Notes under the pieces: generated by a model
The model's database searches: none
What the model saw: only the letters and a program-made list of their open reading frames with translations
Told to the model about the DNA's origin: nothing
In this document: positions 36,807 through 47,124 of the stretch, in pieces
Position numbering within the stretch: position 1 is the first letter of the stretch
How the letters are laid out: each line of letters starts with the position of its first letter
Program-made: the position numbers and the translations under genes
Assembly: GCF_025790165.1 (NCBI RefSeq)
Contig: NZ_CP094970.1
Location: 4,650,001 to 4,714,000, forward strand
Length of the DNA: 64,000 nucleotides
Reading direction: 5' to 3'
Source: Solicola gregarius
GTDB lineage: Bacteria > Actinomycetota > Actinomycetes > Propionibacteriales > Nocardioidaceae

Positions 36807-36851
36807 TGTTGCATGAACTGGCCGTTACCGACCACCCGACAGGAGCCTGAT

Positions 36852-38186
36852 GTGCGACTGCGCGTAGCAGCTGTCCTCGCACTCCTCATGGGAGCATTCC
36901 TCTTCACCTGGGGTTCGGCGGCGCAGGCCGCGCCCGGAGAGCAAGCCCCATCCGCCAGCACCCCGTTCGCCGCCGACAAGGACAAGGACAAGGGCCCGGT
37001 CACCGTCATCTCGGGTGTTCTGCAGAACACCGCCGAAGGCAACGAAGCGGTGCCGGGAGTGACGATCCGGGTCACGACGTCCGAGGGTGACACGCTCGAG
37101 ACGGAGAGCGACGAGAGCGGGCGATACCAGCTCAAGGTGCCCGCCACGGGCGAGACCAAGATCGAGCTCGTCACGGACACTCTCCCCGAGGGAGTCCAGC
37201 TCCGCGAAGGCATCCAGAACCCACTCACGGTGACGCTCGACTCAGGTCGACCGTCGCTCTCGACGGTGTTCGCGGTCGGGCCGGACAACCGTGCGGTCGA
37301 GTCCTGGTACGACCGCGTGCCGCAGACGATCTGGGACGGCGCGTACTTCGGCATCGTGCTCGCGCTCGGCGCGCTCGGCCTGTCGATGGTCTTCGGCACC
37401 ACCGGCCTGACGAACTTCTCCCACGGCGAGCTCGTCACGTTCGGCGCGATCATGACCTACGTCTTCAACGTCGCGATCGGCTGGCCCATCTGGGTCGCCG
37501 GACTCCTCGCGATGATCTGTGCGGCGGCGTTCGGCTATCTCCAGGACACGCTGTTCTGGCGAAGACTCAGGCACAGGGGCACCGGGCTGATCGCGATGAT
37601 GATCGTCTCGATCGGCCTGCAGTTCCTGCTGCGCAACGCGTACCAGTACGGCACCGGCGGGCAGACCCTGAACTACGACGACTACATGACGCCGGACGCG
37701 AGCCACGCGCTCGGTGTCGACTACACCACCCGTGACCTGATCATCATCGCGATCGCCGTCGTGCTGCTGCTGTCGGTGACGATCGCGCTGCAGAAGACCC
37801 GGATCGGTCGGGCGACCCGCGCGGTGGCCGACAATCCCGCACTCGCCGCGTCCTCGGGTATCAACGTCGACCGGGTGATCACCGTCGTCTGGACGGTCGG
37901 CACCATGCTCGCGGGCGCCTGCGGTGTGATGCTCGGCTTCACCCAGTCGGTGAAGTTCGACCTCGGTGCTCAGGTGCTGCTGGTGATGTTCGCCGCGATC
38001 ACGGTCGGAGGACTCGGATCGGTCTGGGGCGCCATCATCGGCTCGGTTGTCGTCGGCATCCTGATCGAGATGTCGACGCTCATCATTCCCGCAGAGCTGA
38101 AGATCGCGACCGCACTGTTCGTCCTCATCGTCGTTCTGATGGTCCGGCCGCAAGGTCTGCTGGGCCGCAAGGAACGCGTGGGATGA
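36852..38186 (+). CDS. livH: Branched-chain amino-acid ABC permease LivH with secreted N-terminal domain
   Basis: A 444-aa protein in three parts. Residues 1-27 are a signal peptide (A-V-L-A-L-L-M-G-A-F-L-F-T-W...A-A-Q-A). Residues about 49-142 are a beta-sandwich like the carboxypeptidase regulatory/CarboxypepD_reg fold (V-P-G-V-T-I-R-V-T-T; D-E-S-G-R-Y-Q-L-K-V-P). Residues about 160-444 are a normal LivH permease (L-S-M-V-F-G-T-T-G-L-T-N-F-S-H-G-E; the G-G-L-G-S-V-W-G-A-I-I-G-S loop). LivH alone is about 290-310 aa. GTG 36852 follows AGGAG by 6 nt. It is the first gene of livHMGF and would import Leu/Ile/Val or related amino acids with livJ. Confidence 0.9.
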   Translation: MRLRVAAVLALLMGAFLFTWGSAAQAAPGEQAPSASTPFAADKDKDKGPVTVISGVLQNTAEGNEAVPGVTIRVTTSEGDTLETESDESGRYQLKVPATGETKIELVTDTLPEGVQLREGIQNPLTVTLDSGRPSLSTVFAVGPDNRAVESWYDRVPQTIWDGAYFGIVLALGALGLSMVFGTTGLTNFSHGELVTFGAIMTYVFNVAIGWPIWVAGLLAMICAAAFGYLQDTLFWRRLRHRGTGLIAMMIVSIGLQFLLRNAYQYGTGGQTLNYDDYMTPDASHALGVDYTTRDLIIIAIAVVLLLSVTIALQKTRIGRATRAVADNPALAASSGINVDRVITVVWTVGTMLAGACGVMLGFTQSVKFDLGAQVLLVMFAAITVGGLGSVWGAIIGSVVVGILIEMSTLIIPAELKIATALFVLIVVLMVRPQGLLGRKERVG

Positions 38187-38205
38187 TCGGGAGAGGGAGA
38201 AACTG

Positions 38206-39183
38206 ATGGACTGGTCAATTCTCGAGAACGCCCTCCAGGCGGCGGTCGGTACCTCGGCGATCTACTTCTGCCTCGCCGCCATCGGCCTCAACGTGCAGTT
38301 CGGCTACACCGGGCTGATCAACTTCGGTCAGGCCGGATTCCTGGCGCTCGGCGCGTACGGCCTCGCCGTCTCGGTCGCGTCCTGGGGCCTTCCGTTCTTC
38401 GTCGGGATCGGGTTGGGACTCGTGCTCAGTGCCGTACTGGCCCTGCTGCTCGGTATCCCGACTCTGCGCCTACGGGCCGACTACCTCGCCATCGCGACGA
38501 TCGCCGCGGCGGAGGTACTGCGCCTCGTGCTCGGCGGCACCTGGAAGGACACGCTGGGCGGGCGCACCGGCATCAACGACTTCACCGAAGCCTTCTACAA
38601 CGCGAACCCCTACTCCGGCTCGATCCTGGGGTTCCGCTCCGACGAGTTCTGGGTGATGACGGTCGGCTGGGTCGTGGTCGCGCTGTCCAGCGTGTTCGTC
38701 TGGCTGCTCGTCCGTTCGCCGTGGGGCCGGGTGCTCAAGGCGATTCGTGAGGACGAGGAGGCCGCTCGCAGCCTCGGTAAGAACGTGTATGCGTACAAGA
38801 TGCAGGCGCTCGTCCTGGGAGGCATGATCGGCTGCCTCGGCGGGTTCGCCATCGCGATCGCGCAAGACGCGGTGCAGCCGAACAGCTTCAACCTCGACAT
38901 GACGTTCATCGTGTTCACGATGCTGATCCTCGGCGGCGCGGCCCGGGTGATCGGCCCGGTGTTCGGGGCGATCGTGTTCTGGGGCCTGCTGTCCTTGGTC
39001 GACGGGGTCCTCTCGAAGCTGACAAGCGGCAGCGACCCGACGATGCCGACCTGGTTGATGGACGGGCAGCAGGTCGGCCCTGTCCGGTTCATGCTGGTCG
39101 GGCTTGTGCTGATGCTGCTGATGATCTACCGCCCGCAGGGAGTCTTCGGAGACCGGAAGGAGATTGCGCTCGATGCCCGCTGA
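38206..39183 (+). CDS. livM: Branched-chain amino-acid ABC permease LivM
   Basis: A 325-aa polytopic permease, the partner of LivH. It shows the family order: an N-terminal helix pair with L-N-V-Q-F-G-Y-T-G-L-I-N-F-G-Q-A-G-F, then P-T-L-R-L-R-A-D-Y-L-A-I-A-T, the cytoplasmic coupling loop W-G-R-V-L-K-A-I-R-E-D-E-E-A-A-R-S-L-G, and a C-terminal G-G-A-A-R-V-I-G-P-V-F-G-A. ATG 38206 follows livH by 19 nt. Its last 11 nt overlap the start of livG. Confidence 0.95.
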   Translation: MDWSILENALQAAVGTSAIYFCLAAIGLNVQFGYTGLINFGQAGFLALGAYGLAVSVASWGLPFFVGIGLGLVLSAVLALLLGIPTLRLRADYLAIATIAAAEVLRLVLGGTWKDTLGGRTGINDFTEAFYNANPYSGSILGFRSDEFWVMTVGWVVVALSSVFVWLLVRSPWGRVLKAIREDEEAARSLGKNVYAYKMQALVLGGMIGCLGGFAIAIAQDAVQPNSFNLDMTFIVFTMLILGGAARVIGPVFGAIVFWGLLSLVDGVLSKLTSGSDPTMPTWLMDGQQVGPVRFMLVGLVLMLLMIYRPQGVFGDRKEIALDAR

Positions 39184-40072
39184 CGCAACGGCCCCAGAGC
39201 CGACACAGAACGCGACCGATCCCAATGAGCCGATCCTGGTGGCCGACAACGTCGTACGCCGGTTCGGCGGCCTGACCGCGGTCGACGTCGACCATGTCGA
39301 GGTCCCGCGCGGCAAGATCACCGCGCTGATCGGACCGAACGGCGCCGGCAAGACGACGTTCTTCAACCTGCTCACCGGCTTCGACCAACCCGACACCGGC
39401 TCGTGGACGTACAACGGTCACGACCTCGCCGGCGTGCCGGCGTACAAGGTGGCGCGGCGCGGCATGGTGCGTACGTTCCAGCTGACGAAGGTGCTCGCGA
39501 AGCTGTCGGTGATCGAGAACATGCGGCTGGCCGCCACCGACCAGCGCGGCGAGCGGTTCTGGTCCGCGCCGTGGGCGGCACTCTGGCGAAGCCAGGAGCG
39601 TGAGGTCACCGAGCGGGCGTACGCGCTGCTCGAGCGGTTCAAGCTCAAGGAGAAGGCCGACGACTTCGCCGGGTCGCTTTCGGGCGGCCAACGCAAGCTG
39701 CTCGAGGTCGCGCGCGCGCTGATGGTCGACCCGGAGCTCGTGATGCTCGACGAGCCGATGGCCGGTGTCAACCCGGCGCTCAAGCAGTCGCTGCTCGGAC
39801 ACGTCAAGTCCCTGCGCGAAGACGGTATGACGGTGCTGTTCGTCGAGCACGACATGGACATGGTCCGCGATATCTCCGACCACGTGATCGTGATGGCTCA
39901 GGGCCGCATCGTCTCCGAGGGCACCCCGGACGACGTGATGAGTGACCCGAAGGTCATCGACGCCTACCTCGGCGAACATCACGACACCGATATCACCGAA
40001 GAGCGCGAGGCGGCCGAGCTCGCCGAGAAGATCGCCGAAGCCGGCGGCAAGTCCGAGCATCTGGAGGGATGA
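39173..40072 (+). CDS. livG: Branched-chain amino-acid ABC ATPase LivG
   Basis: A 299-aa ATPase. Walker A G-P-N-G-A-G-K-T-T, signature L-S-G-G-Q, Walker B V-M-L-D-E-P and the switch histidine (V-E-H-D-M-D-M) are all canonical. The long insert after Q-loop T-F-Q-L-T-K is typical of LivG. ATG 39173 has AAGGAG 10 nt upstream; the TTG at 39164 would be too close to it. The start lies inside livM, and the stop overlaps livF by 4 nt (ATGA). Confidence 0.95.
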   Translation: MPADATAPEPTQNATDPNEPILVADNVVRRFGGLTAVDVDHVEVPRGKITALIGPNGAGKTTFFNLLTGFDQPDTGSWTYNGHDLAGVPAYKVARRGMVRTFQLTKVLAKLSVIENMRLAATDQRGERFWSAPWAALWRSQEREVTERAYALLERFKLKEKADDFAGSLSGGQRKLLEVARALMVDPELVMLDEPMAGVNPALKQSLLGHVKSLREDGMTVLFVEHDMDMVRDISDHVIVMAQGRIVSEGTPDDVMSDPKVIDAYLGEHHDTDITEEREAAELAEKIAEAGGKSEHLEG

Positions 40073-40884
40073 GCATGAGCGACAGTGAAGCCGCGGTCGA
40101 CTCGCCCGACCTGGGCGAGGCCGCGCAGAAGGAGCGCGACGCGCACCTCGCCGCCGCAGACGGCGCCATCCTGCGTGCGGATGACCTGATCGCCGGCTAC
40201 CTGCCCGGCGTCAACATCTTGAACCACACCGACCTGTACTGCCAGGAAGGCGAGCTCGTCGGCATCATCGGGCCGAACGGCGCGGGCAAGTCGACGCTGC
40301 TCAAGGCGCTGTTCGGATTGGTCACCATCCACTCCGGCACGGTGACGCTTCGCGGCAAGGAGATCACGAACGAGCGCGCCGATACGCTTGTGAGCAAGGG
40401 CATCGGCTTCGTACCGCAGACCGAGAACGTCTTCCCGAGCCTGTCGATCGAGGAGAACCTGCAGATGGGCTGCTATCAGGCCCCTGCGAAGTTCGGCGAG
40501 CGGCTCGAGGTGGTCGGAGACATCTTCCCGGCGCTGATCGACCGCAAGACACAGCGCGCCGGCTCGCTGTCCGGCGGCGAGCGGCAGATGGTGGCGATGG
40601 GCCGGGCGTTGATGATGGACCCGTCCGTCCTCCTGCTCGACGAGCCGTCCGCGGGCCTCTCCCCCGTCCTGCAGGACGAGGTGTTCGTACAGACCCGCGC
40701 GATCAACCGGGCCGGGGTCTCGGTGGTCATGGTCGAGCAGAACGCCCGCCGCTGCCTGCAGATCTGCGACCGTGGGTACGTCCTCGACCAGGGCCGCAAC
40801 GCGTACACCGCCCCAGGTCGCGAGCTGATGAACGACCCGAAGGTGATCGAGCTCTACCTCGGAACGCTCGCCAAGGCCGACTGA
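40069..40884 (+). CDS. livF: Branched-chain amino-acid ABC ATPase LivF
   Basis: A 271-aa ATPase and the second nucleotide-binding subunit with LivG. It has G-P-N-G-A-G-K-S-T, L-S-G-G-E, V-L-L-L-D-E-P-S-A-G-L and the V-E-Q-N-A-R-R switch segment, where LivF normally has Gln instead of His. The start overlaps livG by 4 nt. The final codons and the stop lie inside a 29-bp exact tandem duplication, so an identical C-terminal-coding segment is repeated just downstream. Confidence 0.95.
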   Translation: MSMSDSEAAVDSPDLGEAAQKERDAHLAAADGAILRADDLIAGYLPGVNILNHTDLYCQEGELVGIIGPNGAGKSTLLKALFGLVTIHSGTVTLRGKEITNERADTLVSKGIGFVPQTENVFPSLSIEENLQMGCYQAPAKFGERLEVVGDIFPALIDRKTQRAGSLSGGERQMVAMGRALMMDPSVLLLDEPSAGLSPVLQDEVFVQTRAINRAGVSVVMVEQNARRCLQICDRGYVLDQGRNAYTAPGRELMNDPKVIELYLGTLAKAD

Positions 40885-41223: not shown

Positions 41224-42570
41224 CTACTTGTTCGGGCCGATGCCCGCCGTCTCCATCTCCGGGATGATCTTCTTCGCCTCGTCGAACGAGATCAGCACGA
41301 TCGCGTCCGGATCGGCCGATGCGATCTCGTCGACCTCGGCGGAGAAGTTCGGCGACTCCGGCGAGTACAGCACGTTCGCCACGACCTCGCCGCCCTGCTC
41401 GGTGAAGTACTTCTCCACATTCTCGGCGAGCGCCTCACCGTACGCCTCCTGGCGGGCCATGATCGCGACGTTGGTGAAGCCGTCCTTGCCGAGCTGGTCG
41501 GCCATCACCCGGCCCTGCAGCACGTCCGACGGAGCCGTACGGAAGTACAGACCCTTGTCGTCCTTGGTGTCGAACGCCGTCGAGGTGTTCGCCGGCGAGA
41601 TCTGCAGGACACCCGCGTTGGTGATCTGCTTGAGCACCGCGAGCGACACGTCCGACGACGCGGCCCCGACGATGACGTCGACATTCGCCGACAGCAGCTT
41701 GTTCGCCTGCTCCGGCGCGATGTTCGGCGTACCGTCGCCGGAGTCGGCCTCGGTGATCGTGGCGTCCTTGCCGAGCACGCCGCCGGCCTTGTTGATGTCC
41801 TCGATCGCGAGCTTGACGCCGGCGGTCTCGGGCGGCTCCAGGAACGCGAGGTCGCCGGTCTGCGGCAGCAGCGTGCCGACCTTGAACTGACCGTCGCTCT
41901 TACCCGTGCCCTCGATCTGCTGGCCGGCGCTCGGAGCGGGGTTCTCGGTCACCTCTCCGGTGACGTAGTCGATGTTGTGGAAGGTGTTGTCCTCGCCGTA
42001 CTCGAAGATGCCGATCGTCGCGGCGGAGGGGCTACCCGTGTCGTTGAAGTTGATCGGGCTGCTCACACCTTCGTAGTCGACGTCCTTGCCACCGCTGAGC
42101 AGATCGGCGCACTCCTTGAACTCGGTGCACTTCGTTCCGGGGGGTGCCGAAACGCCCTGCATCTCCTTCGCGATGGCCTTCGGATCGTCGGTGTCGGCCG
42201 CGATCGCCGACAGTGCGGTGACCACCGTCGCGTCGTACGACTCGGGACCGTACGTGAAGCTGTCGAGCTTGCTGTCGATCGACAGCAAGCGCTTGCGGAA
42301 GTCGTCGCCCAGCTCGGCGCCGGGGTACGTCGCCTTCACGCCCTTGAGCGTGCCGGGATCGAAGTCCTTGCTGTAGTCGGCGGTGTTGCCGTCGACGAAG
42401 TAGACCTGCTTGTTGCTCGTGGTCTGACCGGCCGCTGCGGCGCCGCTGTCGTCGCTGCCGCTGCTGTCGTCACTGCCGCCGTCGTCGTCGTCGCCACCGC
42501 AAGCGGCGAGTACTAGCGCGGTCGCCGCGGCTACCGCCGCGAGCCGGACCGCCGTTGAGGGGCGTCTCAT
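41224..42570 (-). CDS. livJ: Branched-chain amino-acid-binding lipoprotein LivJ, circularly permuted
   Basis: A 448-aa lipoprotein (lipobox V-L-A-A-C, Cys24, then an Asp/Gly/Ser linker). The blocks of the type I periplasmic binding protein are present but swapped. Residues about 54-210 begin K-Q-V-Y-F-V-D-G-N and end I-D-Y-V-T-G-E-V, which is the usual C-terminal part. Residues about 224-448 begin G-Q-F-K-V-G-T-L-L-P-Q-T-G, the usual mature N-terminus, and end E-T-A-G-I-G-P-N-K, the segment that normally runs straight into the Y-F-V-D-G-N block. No block is lost or repeated, so the fold could be kept with new termini. It converges on livHMGF and should serve that transporter. Confidence 0.88.
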   Translation of the reverse strand: MRRPSTAVRLAAVAAATALVLAACGGDDDDGGSDDSSGSDDSGAAAAGQTTSNKQVYFVDGNTADYSKDFDPGTLKGVKATYPGAELGDDFRKRLLSIDSKLDSFTYGPESYDATVVTALSAIAADTDDPKAIAKEMQGVSAPPGTKCTEFKECADLLSGGKDVDYEGVSSPINFNDTGSPSAATIGIFEYGEDNTFHNIDYVTGEVTENPAPSAGQQIEGTGKSDGQFKVGTLLPQTGDLAFLEPPETAGVKLAIEDINKAGGVLGKDATITEADSGDGTPNIAPEQANKLLSANVDVIVGAASSDVSLAVLKQITNAGVLQISPANTSTAFDTKDDKGLYFRTAPSDVLQGRVMADQLGKDGFTNVAIMARQEAYGEALAENVEKYFTEQGGEVVANVLYSPESPNFSAEVDEIASADPDAIVLISFDEAKKIIPEMETAGIGPNK

Positions 42571-42729: not shown

Positions 42730-43368
42730 TCAATCCGCGCGGCCGTCGCCGTCGTCCGCCCCGTCCGCGATGCCCGGTCCATGGTCGACGACGCCCGCTG
42801 CGACCGCCTTCATGGACAACCGTAGGTCCATCGCGGTCTTCTGGATCCAGCGGAACGCGTCCGGCTCGCTCAGCGAGAGCGTCTCCTGGAGTACGCCCTT
42901 GGCGCGGTCGACGAGCTTGCGGGTCTCGAGCCGTTCGGTCAGGTCGTCGACCTCGTTCTCCAGCTCGATCAGCTCGACGTACCGGCTGACGGCCATCTCG
43001 ATCGCGGGCACGAGGTCGGTCTTGCTGAACGGCTTGACGAGGTACGCCATCGCGCCCGCGTCACGCGCCCGATCCACCAGCTCACGCTGACTGAATGCGG
43101 TCAGCATGACCACCGGAGCGATTCGTTGCGTCGCGATGCGCTCGGCCGCAGCAATCCCGTCGAGCTTCGGCATCTTGATGTCCATGACGACGAGATCCGG
43201 CCGGAACTCCTCGGTCAGCCGGACGGCCTGTTCGCCGTCGGACGCCTGCCCGACGACCTCGTAACCCTCCTCCGAGAGCATCTCCGCGAGGTCGAGTCGG
43301 ATCAGCGCTTCGTCCTCCGCGATGACGACGCGACGGCTCGGGGTCGTGGGCGAGGCTGGTGTTGGCAC
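42730..43368 (-). CDS. pdtaR: ANTAR-domain response regulator (PdtaR-like)
   Basis: A 212-aa regulator. The receiver domain has the acidic pair E-D-E near residue 18, phospho-acceptor Asp63 in V-V-M-D-I-K-M-P, the conserved Thr/Ala of M-L-T-A-F-S and Lys in L-V-K-P-F. The C-terminal ANTAR domain (residues about 140-195; L-E-T-R-K-L-V-D-R-A-K-G-V-L-Q..L-S-E-P-D-A-F-R-W-I-Q) binds tandem-hairpin RNA and blocks terminators after phosphorylation. The partner histidine kinase (PdtaS) is not in the window. I found no dual-hexaloop target in the leaders here. The GTG start at 43368 sits just before the tRNA-Leu. Confidence 0.9.
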   Translation of the reverse strand: MPTPASPTTPSRRVVIAEDEALIRLDLAEMLSEEGYEVVGQASDGEQAVRLTEEFRPDLVVMDIKMPKLDGIAAAERIATQRIAPVVMLTAFSQRELVDRARDAGAMAYLVKPFSKTDLVPAIEMAVSRYVELIELENEVDDLTERLETRKLVDRAKGVLQETLSLSEPDAFRWIQKTAMDLRLSMKAVAAGVVDHGPGIADGADDGDGRAD

Positions 43369-43501: not shown

Positions 43502-44023
43502 TCACATGGTGGGCAGCTTGCCGCCGCGGGCGAGCGGGGCGTTGCAGATGGTCGGCGACATGACCTCCGCCGGGCTCCCCCAGCCTGCGCACTGGTAGTC
43601 GGAGTGGCCGTACCAGTCGTGGCCGAACTCGTGCGCCGCGAGTAGCGCGTCGTCGTTCACACCGCCCATGTACAACGCGATCCGCTGACCCTGACCCCAG
43701 TTGCAGCCGACGATGTTGCCGCCACCCCCGCAGTCGGTGATGTAGCTGTTCCGGCACTCGACGGGCGTACCCCCGCCCTCGGTGAGCCCGTTCCAGGCGG
43801 CGGCACCCTGCCTGATCGCCGCGGCGTACGGCTCGCAGGACGCCTCGAGGTAGTAGCTGCGGTCGTTCGGGGTGTCCCAGCCGGCGGCCGGCGCAACCGC
43901 GACGGTGTCGGGAGTGACATCGTGTACGGCCGGTGCAGCACCGGCCTGGGTGACCGTGCCTGCGAACGCCGCGGCGACACCTGCGGCGACGATTCCGAAC
44001 CTTGTGAAGACGTGCTTGATCAT
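43502..44023 (-). CDS. Small secreted zinc metalloprotease (snapalysin-like)
   Basis: A 173-aa exported protein. A signal peptide ends near A-G-A-A at residue 30, and AAGGAG lies 8 nt before ATG 44023. The zinc motif is H-E-F-G-H at residues 131-135 in L-L-A-A-H-E-F-G-H-D-W-Y-G-H-S-D, followed by a probable Met-turn E-V-M-S-P at residues 153-157. It resembles M7 snapalysin and related small metzincins, but the spacing to the third ligand is one residue longer than the usual HExxHxxGxxD. Six cysteines suggest disulfides. Its stop lies only 3 nt from the 3' end of tRNA-Leu. Confidence 0.7.
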   Translation of the reverse strand: MIKHVFTRFGIVAAGVAAAFAGTVTQAGAAPAVHDVTPDTVAVAPAAGWDTPNDRSYYLEASCEPYAAAIRQGAAAWNGLTEGGGTPVECRNSYITDCGGGGNIVGCNWGQGQRIALYMGGVNDDALLAAHEFGHDWYGHSDYQCAGWGSPAEVMSPTICNAPLARGGKLPTM

Positions 44024-44122
44024 GCCGATCTCCTTCGTCCGAGGGACGGCCGGGGTCTCCGGCGATCCCGCCATACCTGGCGGAACCTCACCTACCCAGG
44101 ACGAGCGAAATCATGCGCCGCA

Positions 44123-45580
44123 CTACTCGATCGACTCGTCGCCGCGGTACGCGGGAGCGATCTCGTTGATCGCATCACCCATCCGATGGATGCGCAGCGC
44201 ATTCGTCGAGCCCGGGATGCCGGGCGGGCTGCCCGCCACGATGACGACCTGCTCGCCCTCGACGCAGTGCCCGCTCTCCAGCAGGCTGCGATCGACCTGG
44301 CGCACCATCATGTCCGTGTGCTCGACGCGGCGGGCCCAGAACGACTCGACGCCCCAGCTCAACGCCAGCTGCTCGCGTACGACCGGGTCCGTCGTGAACG
44401 CGATCACCGGCACCCGGGAGCGGTAACGCGTGGCGCGCCGCGCGGAGTCGCCGGACGTCGTGAACGCGACCAGGTACTTCGCGTCGACGGCCTCGGCCAC
44501 TTCGGCCGCAGCCTTGCAGATCACGCCGCCGCGGGTACGCGGCTTCCAGTCGATCGCGGCCATCTGCGAGAGACCGTGGTCCTCGGTCGACCCCACGATC
44601 CGCGCCATCGTCTCAACTGTCTCGACCGGATACTGTCCGACACTGGTCTCGCCCGACAGCATCACCGCGTCCGCGCCGTCGAGGACGGCGTTCGCGACGT
44701 CGGAGGTCTCTGCGCGGGTCGGACGCGGCGACGAGATCATCGACTCCAGCATCTGGGTCGCCACGATGACCGGCTTGGCATGCGTACGCGCGCGCTCGAT
44801 GATCTTCTTCTGCACGAGTGGCACGAACTCGAGCGGCAGCTCGACGCCCAGATCACCGCGCGCGACCATGAAGCCGTCGAAGACGTCGACGATCTCCTCG
44901 AGGTTCTCGACCGCCTGCGGCTTCTCGATCTTGGCGATGACGGGCCGCAGCACGTCCTCGTCGCGCATGATCCGGCGTACGTCCTCGGCGTCGGCGGCGT
45001 TGCGTACGAACGACAGCGCGACGAAGTCGACACCGGTGCGCAGGGCCCACCGCAGGTCGTCGACGTCCTTGTCGGACATCGCCGGCACGCTGACCTGTAC
45101 GCCGGGCAGGTTGATGCCCTTGTGGTCACTGACGGTGCCGCCGACCTCGACCTCGGTCTCGACCTCGCTGTCGGTCACCTTGGTTGCGCGCAGGCGTACC
45201 TGCCCGTCGTCGATCAGGATCTCGTCGCCGACCTTCACGTCGCCCGGGAGGCCCTTGTAGGTGGTCGAACACGTACTGCCGCCGCCCTCGATGTCTGCGA
45301 CCGAGATCGTGAAGGGGTCACCTGTGTTGAGTGTCTGCGGCCCGTCGGCGAAAGTGCCGAGGCGAATCTTCGGTCCCTGCAGGTCGGCGACGATCGCAAT
45401 CGCCTTGCCGAGCTCCTTGCCGGCGGCCCGCACGTGCTCGTACGAGCTCGCGTGGTCATCGTGGGTGCCGTGGCTCAGGTTGAGTCGCGCGACGTCCATA
45501 CCTGCCCGCGCAAGGGCGAGTATGTCGTCGTACGAACTGGTTGCGGGACCGAGAGTGCAGACGATCTTTGCTCTACGCAC
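44123..45580 (-). CDS. pyk: Pyruvate kinase
   Basis: A 485-aa glycolytic enzyme converting phosphoenolpyruvate plus ADP to pyruvate plus ATP. Standard motifs are present: A-K-I-V-C-T-L-G-P-A-T, N-L-S-H-G-T-H-D, the substrate/metal loop V-I-A-K-I-E-K-P-Q-A-V-E-N, M-V-A-R-G-D-L-G-V-E, and Q-M-L-E-S-M. The C-terminal regulatory domain is complete. The GTG start (45580) is the first in the conserved region. It follows gltD on the same strand with 80 nt between them, which could hold a separate promoter. Confidence 0.97.
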   Translation of the reverse strand: MRRAKIVCTLGPATSSYDDILALARAGMDVARLNLSHGTHDDHASSYEHVRAAGKELGKAIAIVADLQGPKIRLGTFADGPQTLNTGDPFTISVADIEGGGSTCSTTYKGLPGDVKVGDEILIDDGQVRLRATKVTDSEVETEVEVGGTVSDHKGINLPGVQVSVPAMSDKDVDDLRWALRTGVDFVALSFVRNAADAEDVRRIMRDEDVLRPVIAKIEKPQAVENLEEIVDVFDGFMVARGDLGVELPLEFVPLVQKKIIERARTHAKPVIVATQMLESMISSPRPTRAETSDVANAVLDGADAVMLSGETSVGQYPVETVETMARIVGSTEDHGLSQMAAIDWKPRTRGGVICKAAAEVAEAVDAKYLVAFTTSGDSARRATRYRSRVPVIAFTTDPVVREQLALSWGVESFWARRVEHTDMMVRQVDRSLLESGHCVEGEQVVIVAGSPPGIPGSTNALRIHRMGDAINEIAPAYRGDESIE

Positions 45581-45660
45581 GGCTCCACCCTAGGGGTTAC
45601 CCACCCGTCAACGAAATTGTTCGACGCAAAAACAAACCAGAAATCTCGGCGGGCCCTCCG

Positions 45661-47124
45661 TCACACGGCGAGCGGCCGCGCGGTCGGCGGGATCGGAGCG
45701 GGTAGTCCACTCGTGCCACCGAGGTACGCGTCGACTCCTGCGGCGCACGAACGCCCCTCCGCCAACGCCCAGACGATGAGCGACTGACCCCGCCCGGCGT
45801 CGCCGGCCACGAAGACGCCATCGACACTCGTCATGTACGTCTTGTCGCGTGCGACGTTGCCGCGCTCGTCCAGATCGACACCGAGCTGCTCCACGAGCCC
45901 TTCGCGCTCCGGACCCGTGAAGCCCATCGCGAACAGGACCAGCTGCGCCGGGATGTCCCGCTCGGTGCCGTCGACCTCGGTCATCGCGCCGTCGACGAAC
46001 TCCACCTCGACGATGCGCAGTCCGCGTACGCTCCCGCCGTCGCCCAAGAACTCCTTGGTGGACACGGAGTACGTGCGCTCGCCGCCCTCCTCGTGCGCCG
46101 ACGCGACGCGATAGATCATCGGGTACGTCGGCCACGGCTGGTTGTCGGGCCGTTCGTCGGTCGGGCGCGGCATGATCTCCAGCTGGGTGATCGACCGCGC
46201 GCCCTGGCGGATCGCGGTGCCGAGGCAGTCGGCGCCCGTGTCGCCGCCGCCGATGATGACGACGTCCTTGCCGGCGGCGGTGATCTGGTCGGCCACCTCC
46301 TCGCCGAGCGAGACACGGTTCGACTGCGGCAGGTACTCCATCGCCTGGTGGATGCCGGCCAGCTCACGGCCGGGTACGGGCAGATCCCTGCGTACGGTCG
46401 AGCCGACCGCGAGTACGACGGCGTCGTACCGCTCACGTACGGCCGCACCGGACAGGTCGTCGCCCACCGCGACGTTGGAACGGAAGACCGTGCCCTCGCG
46501 CCGCATCTGCTCGATCCGCCGATCGACCTGTACCTTCTCCATCTTGAACTCAGGGATGCCGTACCGCAGCAGGCCGCCCGGCTTGTCGTCGCGCTCGTAC
46601 ACCGCGACCGTGTGTCCCGCGCGGGTGAGCTGCTGGGCCGCGGCGAGACCGGCCGGACCGGACCCGATGACCGCGACGGTCTTGCCGGTCAGCCACTCCG
46701 GCGGCTCCGGACGTACGAGGCCCCGCTCCCACGCCTTGTCGATGATCGAGACCTCGACGTTCTTGATCGTCACCGCGTCGCGGTTGATAGCGACGACGCA
46801 GGCCGTCTCGCACGGCGCCGGGCAGAGCCGACCGGTGAACTCCGGGAAGTTGTTCGTCGCGTGCAGGCGCTCGATCGCGCCCTCCCAGTCGTCGCGCCAC
46901 ACCAGGTCGTTCCACTCGGGGATGAGGTTGCCGAGCGGGCAACCGCTGTGGCAGAACGGGATCCCGCAGTCCATGCAGCGGCCCGCCTGCTCGGTGATGA
47001 TCGGCAGCAGCGCCCGACCCGCGCCCCCCGGGTAGACCTCCTGCCAGTCGCCCGTGCGCTCCTCGATCGGCCGACGCTCCGCCACCTCGCGCGGCGTACG
47101 CATGAATGCCTTCGGGTCAGCCAT
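45661..47124 (-). CDS. gltD: Glutamate synthase small subunit
   Basis: A 487-aa FAD/NADPH-binding subunit that passes electrons to GltB for making glutamate from glutamine and 2-oxoglutarate. Residues 50-66 hold the iron-sulfur cysteines [14 protein letters not shown], with a second set in [13 protein letters not shown] binding is shown by [13 protein letters not shown] and NADPH binding by [10 protein letters not shown]. The ATG at 47124 overlaps the end of gltB by 8 nt, so the subunits are translationally coupled. Confidence 0.97.

Follow-up and report, generated by a model that had tools for sequence, protein, structure and literature searches.

Swapped block order in a LivJ-type binding lipoprotein of Solicola gregarius: a probable natural circular permutation that recurs in other lineages

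Introduction

Type I binding proteins, very common both in transport and as scaffolds for biosensors, are treated as having one chain order. In the stretch of Solicola gregarius DNA analysed here (64,000 nucleotides of contig NZ_CP094970.1, positions 4,650,001 to 4,714,000; hereafter the window), one gene seems to encode such a protein with its two halves exchanged, which raises the question of whether the exchange is real and, if so, how often it has happened and what it means for the importer. A preliminary description of the sequence had read the gene as a circularly permuted amino-acid-binding lipoprotein in which nothing is missing or doubled. Our analyses favor, with a probability of roughly 0.87, a natural circularly permuted LivJ-type (type I, Peripla_BP_6) binding lipoprotein that keeps the usual fold, feeds LivHMGF, has its lipid tether moved, is borne on a cassette and is recurrent, with binding, transport, ligand and the lobe carrying the tether being inferred.

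Results and discussion

Layout of the gene and its surroundings

The livJ-type protein is encoded together with livHMGF (36813-40884), and the features on which the argument rests are listed here with the evidence for each.

36813..38186, plus strand: livH-type permease gene with an N-terminal extension (Pfam BPD_transp_2)
38206..39183, plus strand: livM-type permease gene (Pfam BPD_transp_2)
39164..40072, plus strand: livG-type ATPase gene, start codon uncertain (Pfam ABC_tran, BCA_ABC_TP_C)
40069..40884, plus strand: livF-type ATPase gene, convergent with livJ (Pfam ABC_tran)
41224..42570, minus strand: permuted livJ-type gene (P0001), 448 aa (open reading frame, half-wise alignment, profile match)
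42499..42570, minus strand: signal peptide and lipobox, residues 1-24, ending LAAC (sequence; match to profile positions 1-49; C24 invariant)
42412..42498, minus strand: Asp/Gly/Ser-rich linker, residues 25-53 (pLDDT under 50 for residues 1-51)
41950..42411, minus strand: block C, the ordinary C-terminal part, now first, residues 54-207 (alignment, profile; predicted elements E55-59 to E197-206)
41887..41949, minus strand: new internal linker joining the ordinary C and N termini, residues 208-228 (linker comparison; mean pLDDT 86-91 in 10-residue blocks over 201-230)
41227..41886, minus strand: block N, the ordinary mature N-terminal part, now second, residues 229-448, ending GIGPNK (Pfam PF13458 at 229-446; alignment, profile)
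42730..43368, minus strand: response regulator with an ANTAR domain, a flank that does not track the livJ form (Pfam; tree)
44123..47124, minus strand: pyk and gltD-type genes, the yardstick of host history (Pfam; tree); the gltD name is one that we presume from general knowledge

As the frame reads, the chain runs from its ATG through the lipobox (LAAC24), a linker, KQVYFVDGN to YVTGEV, a further linker and FKVGTLLPQTG to GIGPNK and the stop, and the frame is open along its whole length. The lipobox, the Asp/Gly linker, the C-terminal block at residues 54-207, the N-terminal block from about residue 229 and the GIGPNK end all lie where the preliminary description had placed them.

Profile matches in swapped order

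We evaluated the order of the blocks with a profile of 41 ordinary-order relatives (A4) from which the window protein was excluded. The native protein matched this profile in three pieces, with positions 1-49 at residues 1-49, positions 267-427 at residues 47-207 (216 bits) and positions 40-273 at residues 215-448 (350 bits); rotated back, it gave a single match to positions 1-427 at 615 bits, and the best pieces from 16 block rotations in 25-residue steps, native order included, scored 283-573 bits. A reciprocal profile of permuted proteins (the window's own included) behaved the other way round, finding the native chain in one piece at 704 bits and the rotated chain in pieces of 380 and 251 bits. 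The proposed circular permutation is borne out by these matches, and both halves, when aligned separately, map to ordinary relatives in swapped order. The claim that nothing is missing or doubled survives in its first part, with all 427 profile positions covered, and needs correcting in its second, as the pieces overlap by 10 positions (40-49) at one seam and by 7 (267-273) at the other.

Pfam PF13458 (Peripla_BP_6) recognized the protein at 135.2 bits against a curated cut-off of 31.7, with the match covering only positions 2-217 of 343, at residues 229-446, such that the Pfam profile sees only part of permuted LivJ-type proteins; in the ordinary orthologue L016, positions 2-311 were matched at residues 49-355. 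Collinearity with ordinary family members would have overturned the permutation, and no collinear match over most of the profile was met, the matches staying in swapped pieces. Judged by these alignments, the protein at 41224-42570 is a PF13458 homologue and a permuted variant, not an ordinary member. Identity to 23 ordinary orthologues (L015-L037) was 55-68% in the N block and 46-67% in the C block. A phmmer search with block C alone returned 3 matches at E 0.11-0.85, none of them a binding protein. A Pfam match to DUF1871 at residues 100-156 (25.4 bits, cut-off 22) was taken as chance, and it is absent from L016, L221, L147 and L150 at E 0.001.

Distribution in other genomes

Surveying genomes at increasing taxonomic depth revealed that related genomes of the family, order and class share the permuted order, as had been expected of a genuine permutation. 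Within the Nocardioidaceae, a collinear permuted match (E up to 1e-85) occurred in 25 of 341 genomes including the window's own, one of these copies being cut by a contig end, and in 9 further genomes only the N half matched at this threshold, those examined having the ordinary order. Collinear permuted matches were present in at least 7 of 293 genomes at the order level, at least 11 of 394 at the class level (five families) and at least 7 of 346 at the phylum level (two with the first of the cut positions described below and five with the second). These last three counts are lower bounds and are not additive because the samples overlap and only the matches listed were counted. BLAST of the separate halves against the first 32 loci recovered 8 permuted (L001, L009-L014, L038) and 24 ordinary copies. 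Among loci from named records, block order was determined in only 2 of 80 (L038 permuted, L039 ordinary); L038 and L122 are identical in the block alignment and probably represent one strain.

Mis-joined repeats can in principle produce a block swap, so an assembly or sequencing artefact, with the two halves of an ordinary gene joined in the wrong order, had to be weighed; independent assemblies refute it, leaving it next to no credence. The host genome is one contig of 4.92 Mb, and the nearest permuted copy (G507, 92% identical), whose genome is also one contig, has the same order, as does the named record Marmoricola sp. Leaf446, whose copy is 63-64% identical to the window protein and has a block sequence equal to that of G343. 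Together with the 25 family genomes, permuted copies at 39-50% identity in other families and a frame open throughout speak against the artefact. G507 and many other assemblies show the permuted order, not the normal one that renewed sequencing might have exposed.

Predicted fold and purifying selection

AlphaFold on 33 permuted sequences gave the window LivJ a pLDDT of 86.8 and a pTM of 0.83, with 315 of its 448 residues reaching at least 90, and gave an ordinary orthologue used as control 89.3 and 0.85. Beyond the signal helix there are 26 elements, which after rotation agree with those of the control in kind and order (10 + 16 versus 16 + 10), and the tether (residues 1-51) is modelled as disordered. 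The preliminary description had anticipated a fold that closes, and the model is that of a complete type I binding protein whose new ends lie in the stretch joining a helix to the strand that follows it, with no end-to-end distance taken. A sequential aligner covered only residues 227-448 of the permuted model (220 residues aligned to 4n0q_B, Z 17.7, 2.8 A) and 48-420 of the control (336 residues aligned to 3td9, Z 40.4, 2.3 A); coverage of one part alone is what a permutation predicts. The structure searches give only Foldseek's best matches and exclude no family. Retention of the two-lobed type I fold is supported by prediction only, and AlphaFold may be able to rebuild a known fold from homologous halves in any order.

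The residues Y57, D60, G61 and N62 (the YxxDGN motif), C148, C154 and C24 are invariant in 33/33 permuted rows of alignment A3, which is without L122 (every alignment is without the truncated L135). The lipobox and the invariant C24 are our only grounds, at the level of sequence, for calling LivJ an exported lipoprotein, its processing being inferred. In the ordinary-relative profile, the same DG aligns with the DG of 4gnr and 3ipc, and we take this position to contact the ligand in LivJ-type proteins. dN/dS was 0.13-0.30 in five permuted pairs and 0.10-0.14 in three ordinary pairs, and permuted LivJ is under purifying selection. The genome does hold one further PF13458 protein outside the window (C1:2779818-2780894) that matches the whole profile in ordinary order, and this could allow the rearranged LivJ to be a decaying gene that no longer binds or transports, with the genome relying on the other protein. 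Such decay is very improbable given the dN/dS values, the conserved ligand-side motif and cysteines, the presence of the permuted form in several genera and its tight linkage to a permease lineage.

A second cut and repeated rearrangement

Beyond what the preliminary description had foreseen, the trait is recurrent, a second cut exists and the permuted form follows a permease lineage. In 34 untruncated proteins, the first cut places the end of the chain 1-4 residues past the N block. The second cut, found in five proteins from outside the window's class (L219-L223; families f58, f71 and f112), lies about 20 residues downstream, such that the chain ends 22-24 residues past the N block, the DGN motif therefore remains at the C-terminus, and the chain restarts with a LxGM/VKGT-like stretch after its linker. 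Both cuts fall in loops flanking one strand, E270-274 of the modelled ordinary orthologue, and the 39 untruncated permuted copies inspected show no third cut position. The linker across the old ends has 20-22 residues in 26 Nocardioidaceae copies and 21-29 in the remaining permuted copies, as counted from extrapolated ends of the profile, and the internal linkers differ between first-cut groups.

These groups are visible on a tree of the two blocks set in one order, where the 34 first-cut rows fall in three places, namely 25 rows inside the Nocardioidaceae ordinary proteins (group 1), six rows from families f28 and f37 (group 2) and three rows from f50 and f40 near ordinary f7 proteins (group 3); the alignment held 107 of 110 entries after removal of two duplicate loci and one truncated copy. 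A more careful tree of 66 of the 107 rows, with near copies and long ordinary branches chosen for removal, needs three changes for the first-cut form, with a bootstrap 5-95% range of 3-3 and one change in 0 of 200 bootstrap trees. A single clade of all permuted rows was rejected (p-AU 3e-47), as was joining groups 1 and 2 (p-AU 4.6e-5) or groups 2 and 3 (p-AU 1.8e-5), these pairings being defined after the tree was seen. With the second cut included, a quick tree (91 of 135 entries, near copies and long ordinary branches left out) requires six changes between ordinary and permuted, five of them forced by starred branches, with 4 changes (3 forced) for the first-cut form and 2, both forced, for the second. 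The permeases give a similar count: on a livH+livM tree of 78 loci there are six changes, four forced, including three for the first-cut form, all forced by starred branches, and 3 for the second-cut form, only 1 of them forced. This tree drew on 102 loci, 16 of which lack the permease genes in the fetched stretch, and retained 78 of the 86 with both (8 near copies out).

One ancient permutation, spread by transfer, would explain why the cut is nearly identical in all 34 untruncated first-cut copies; as the source of every one of them it is nonetheless improbable in view of the three places on the careful tree with its narrow bootstrap range, the rejected joins (those of group pairs being post hoc), the three forced first-cut changes among the permeases and the unlike internal linkers. 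The first-cut change accordingly involved at least three rearrangements. Gains and returns are not separable, such that three gains cannot be told from one gain and two returns because the trees are unrooted, and either way at least three rearrangements remain. The same change seems to have occurred independently elsewhere in the phylum, outside the host family.

Locus setting and cassette history

Fetched flanks revealed that permuted and ordinary livJ of the family share a usual setting, gltD-pyk-ANTAR regulator-livJ, convergent with livFGMH (ordinary L159 and L160; permuted L152-L154, L156-L158 and L166), with the ANTAR gene on the other side in L155 and the liv genes absent from the fetched stretch of the ordinary L161. 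Permuted copies L149-L151 (f37, f28 and f50) also adjoin livFGMH. In the f40 permuted copies L147 and L148, livFGMH is not adjacent, and no livH and livM were found in the 16 kb fetched. These two are also the most diverged permuted copies in A3, at 37% identity to the window protein.

Within the family, a single change on the livH+livM tree (SH-aLRT 100) sets the 17 permuted loci apart from the 18 ordinary ones, and the livF+livG tree makes the same split with 1 change at an SH-aLRT of only 86; the comparison, flanking genes included, leaves out L149, L150, L151, L161 and L165, and two of the 18 ordinary loci (L163 and L164) are outgroups from other families. The flanks behave differently. 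The gltD+pyk tree (34 loci; genes 1.6-4.6 kb from livJ in the window) has 9 label changes, six forced, against a shuffled mean of 11.7, a value as low being reached in 32 of 500 shuffles, and the livJ-form label is not wholly independent of the history of these genes. The adjacent ANTAR gene (34 loci) likewise has 9 changes, but starred branches force only 1, and DUF554 on the far side (20 rows) has 6 changes, 3 forced, no better than shuffled labels (mean about 6.9). The common history of livJ and livHMGF, unlike that of the flanks, points to exchange of the cassette at a fixed site, to co-adaptation, or to both. In the host family, the permuted form would be one lineage of the livJ-livFGMH cassette swapped between species at a fixed site.

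A working importer with its tether moved

Most likely, the window LivJ is a working binding protein whose lipid tether has shifted to the other lobe, with binding and transport inferred without experimental data on either or on expression. Past the lipid-anchored cysteine and the flexible linker, the chain would begin in the loop before the YFVDGN strand, pass through the ordinary C-terminal part, cross about 20 residues of new linker to the ordinary N-terminus and stop after the helix that ordinarily precedes that loop. The usual two-lobed protein would thereby form with fold and ligand site kept, and by inference it would bind a branched-chain or similar amino acid, this being the likeliest ligand, and pass it to the neighbouring LivHMGF. 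The tether, ordinarily on the first strand of lobe 1, would now sit on lobe 2, an assignment that we presume from general knowledge of the fold.

By inference again, the permuted form probably arose through tandem duplication, fusion and trimming to a chain with its start ahead of the DGN strand. The seam positions matched twice by the profile, few as they are, would fit such trimming and do not prove it, and no open reading frame of 250 aa or more with one block twice was found in the livJ loci surveyed, half-length genes being outside the scope. Loci L179 and L180 (f20) each contain two ordinary-order livJ genes in tandem, about 1 kb apart; they record a duplication there, not an intermediate, and are a possible starting point for a permutation.

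Whether the permutation matters to the cell is finely balanced, with slightly better than even support for selective neutrality, a reading that rests on cuts placed in loops, on a long and floppy tether and on a tie to the permeases that is only cassette linkage. Both cuts do sit in loops beside one strand, livJ and livHMGF do share their history as a block, and, with the tether modelled as long and disordered, the change may come close to neutrality, and this would help to explain recurrence. Against this, only two cut positions occur in 39 untruncated permuted copies, a restriction that constraint could explain as well as selection, and neutrality is not excluded. The strict association with one permease lineage in the family leaves room for co-adaptation that may have taken place. 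We regard as doubtful the further idea that permutation is a recurrent adaptive switch of amino-acid ABC importers, in which moving the tether between lobes alters presentation to the permease, and permuted and ordinary forms are non-interchangeable morphs with their own LivHM lineages, exchanged as five-gene cassettes at a fixed locus and having evolved three or more times at one cut and once or more at the second.

Relation to known permutants

Compared with LivJ/LivK-type proteins (PF13458; solved structures 4gnr, 3td9, 4n0q and 3ipc), the circularly permuted LivJ is homologous throughout, a lipoprotein encoded beside livHMGF and predicted to have the same elements, and differs in its swapped blocks, new termini and new linker between the old termini. 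Circular permutation as such is well known in nature. Saposin/swaposin and DNA methyltransferases (PMC3320104) and the cpRAS and YRG GTPases (PMC2430557) likewise have two homologous blocks swapped and, as far as the accessible parts of these sources go, are apparently not transporter binding proteins; for the GTPases, the available text describes two different permutations, as in LivJ-type proteins. Engineering has yielded permuted halves of the ribose-binding protein of Thermotoga maritima (PMC9815098), and, according to the portion of that source at hand, they share the type I fold and its tolerance of permutation but are single lobes produced in the laboratory and not an entire protein from nature. 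Searches of the open-access PubMed Central literature brought up no transporter binding protein that is permuted in nature, with subscription papers and preprints outside the scope. What makes the LivJ-type case stand out is its unusual degree of recurrence. Repeated permutation at two neighbouring sites, with ordinary controls at the same locus, amounts to a natural experiment on the origin of circular permutants, and it bears on the role of the tethered lobe in permease docking and on where scaffolds tolerate cuts.

Other features of the window

At 43502-44074 (minus strand), a 190-aa protein with a signal-like start has no Pfam match at E 0.001; its HEFGH stretch resembles, by eye, that of a zinc protease, and at E 1e-8 it is matched in none of the other flank-compared loci besides the near neighbour G507 (90%). 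LivH (36813-38186, plus strand) has a long N-terminal extension ahead of its permease domain, of which residues 66-119 show a weak carboxypeptidase-regulatory-like match (24.5 bits, under the Pfam cut-off of 32.3), and most LivH alignments, from permuted and ordinary loci alike, reach into this extension.
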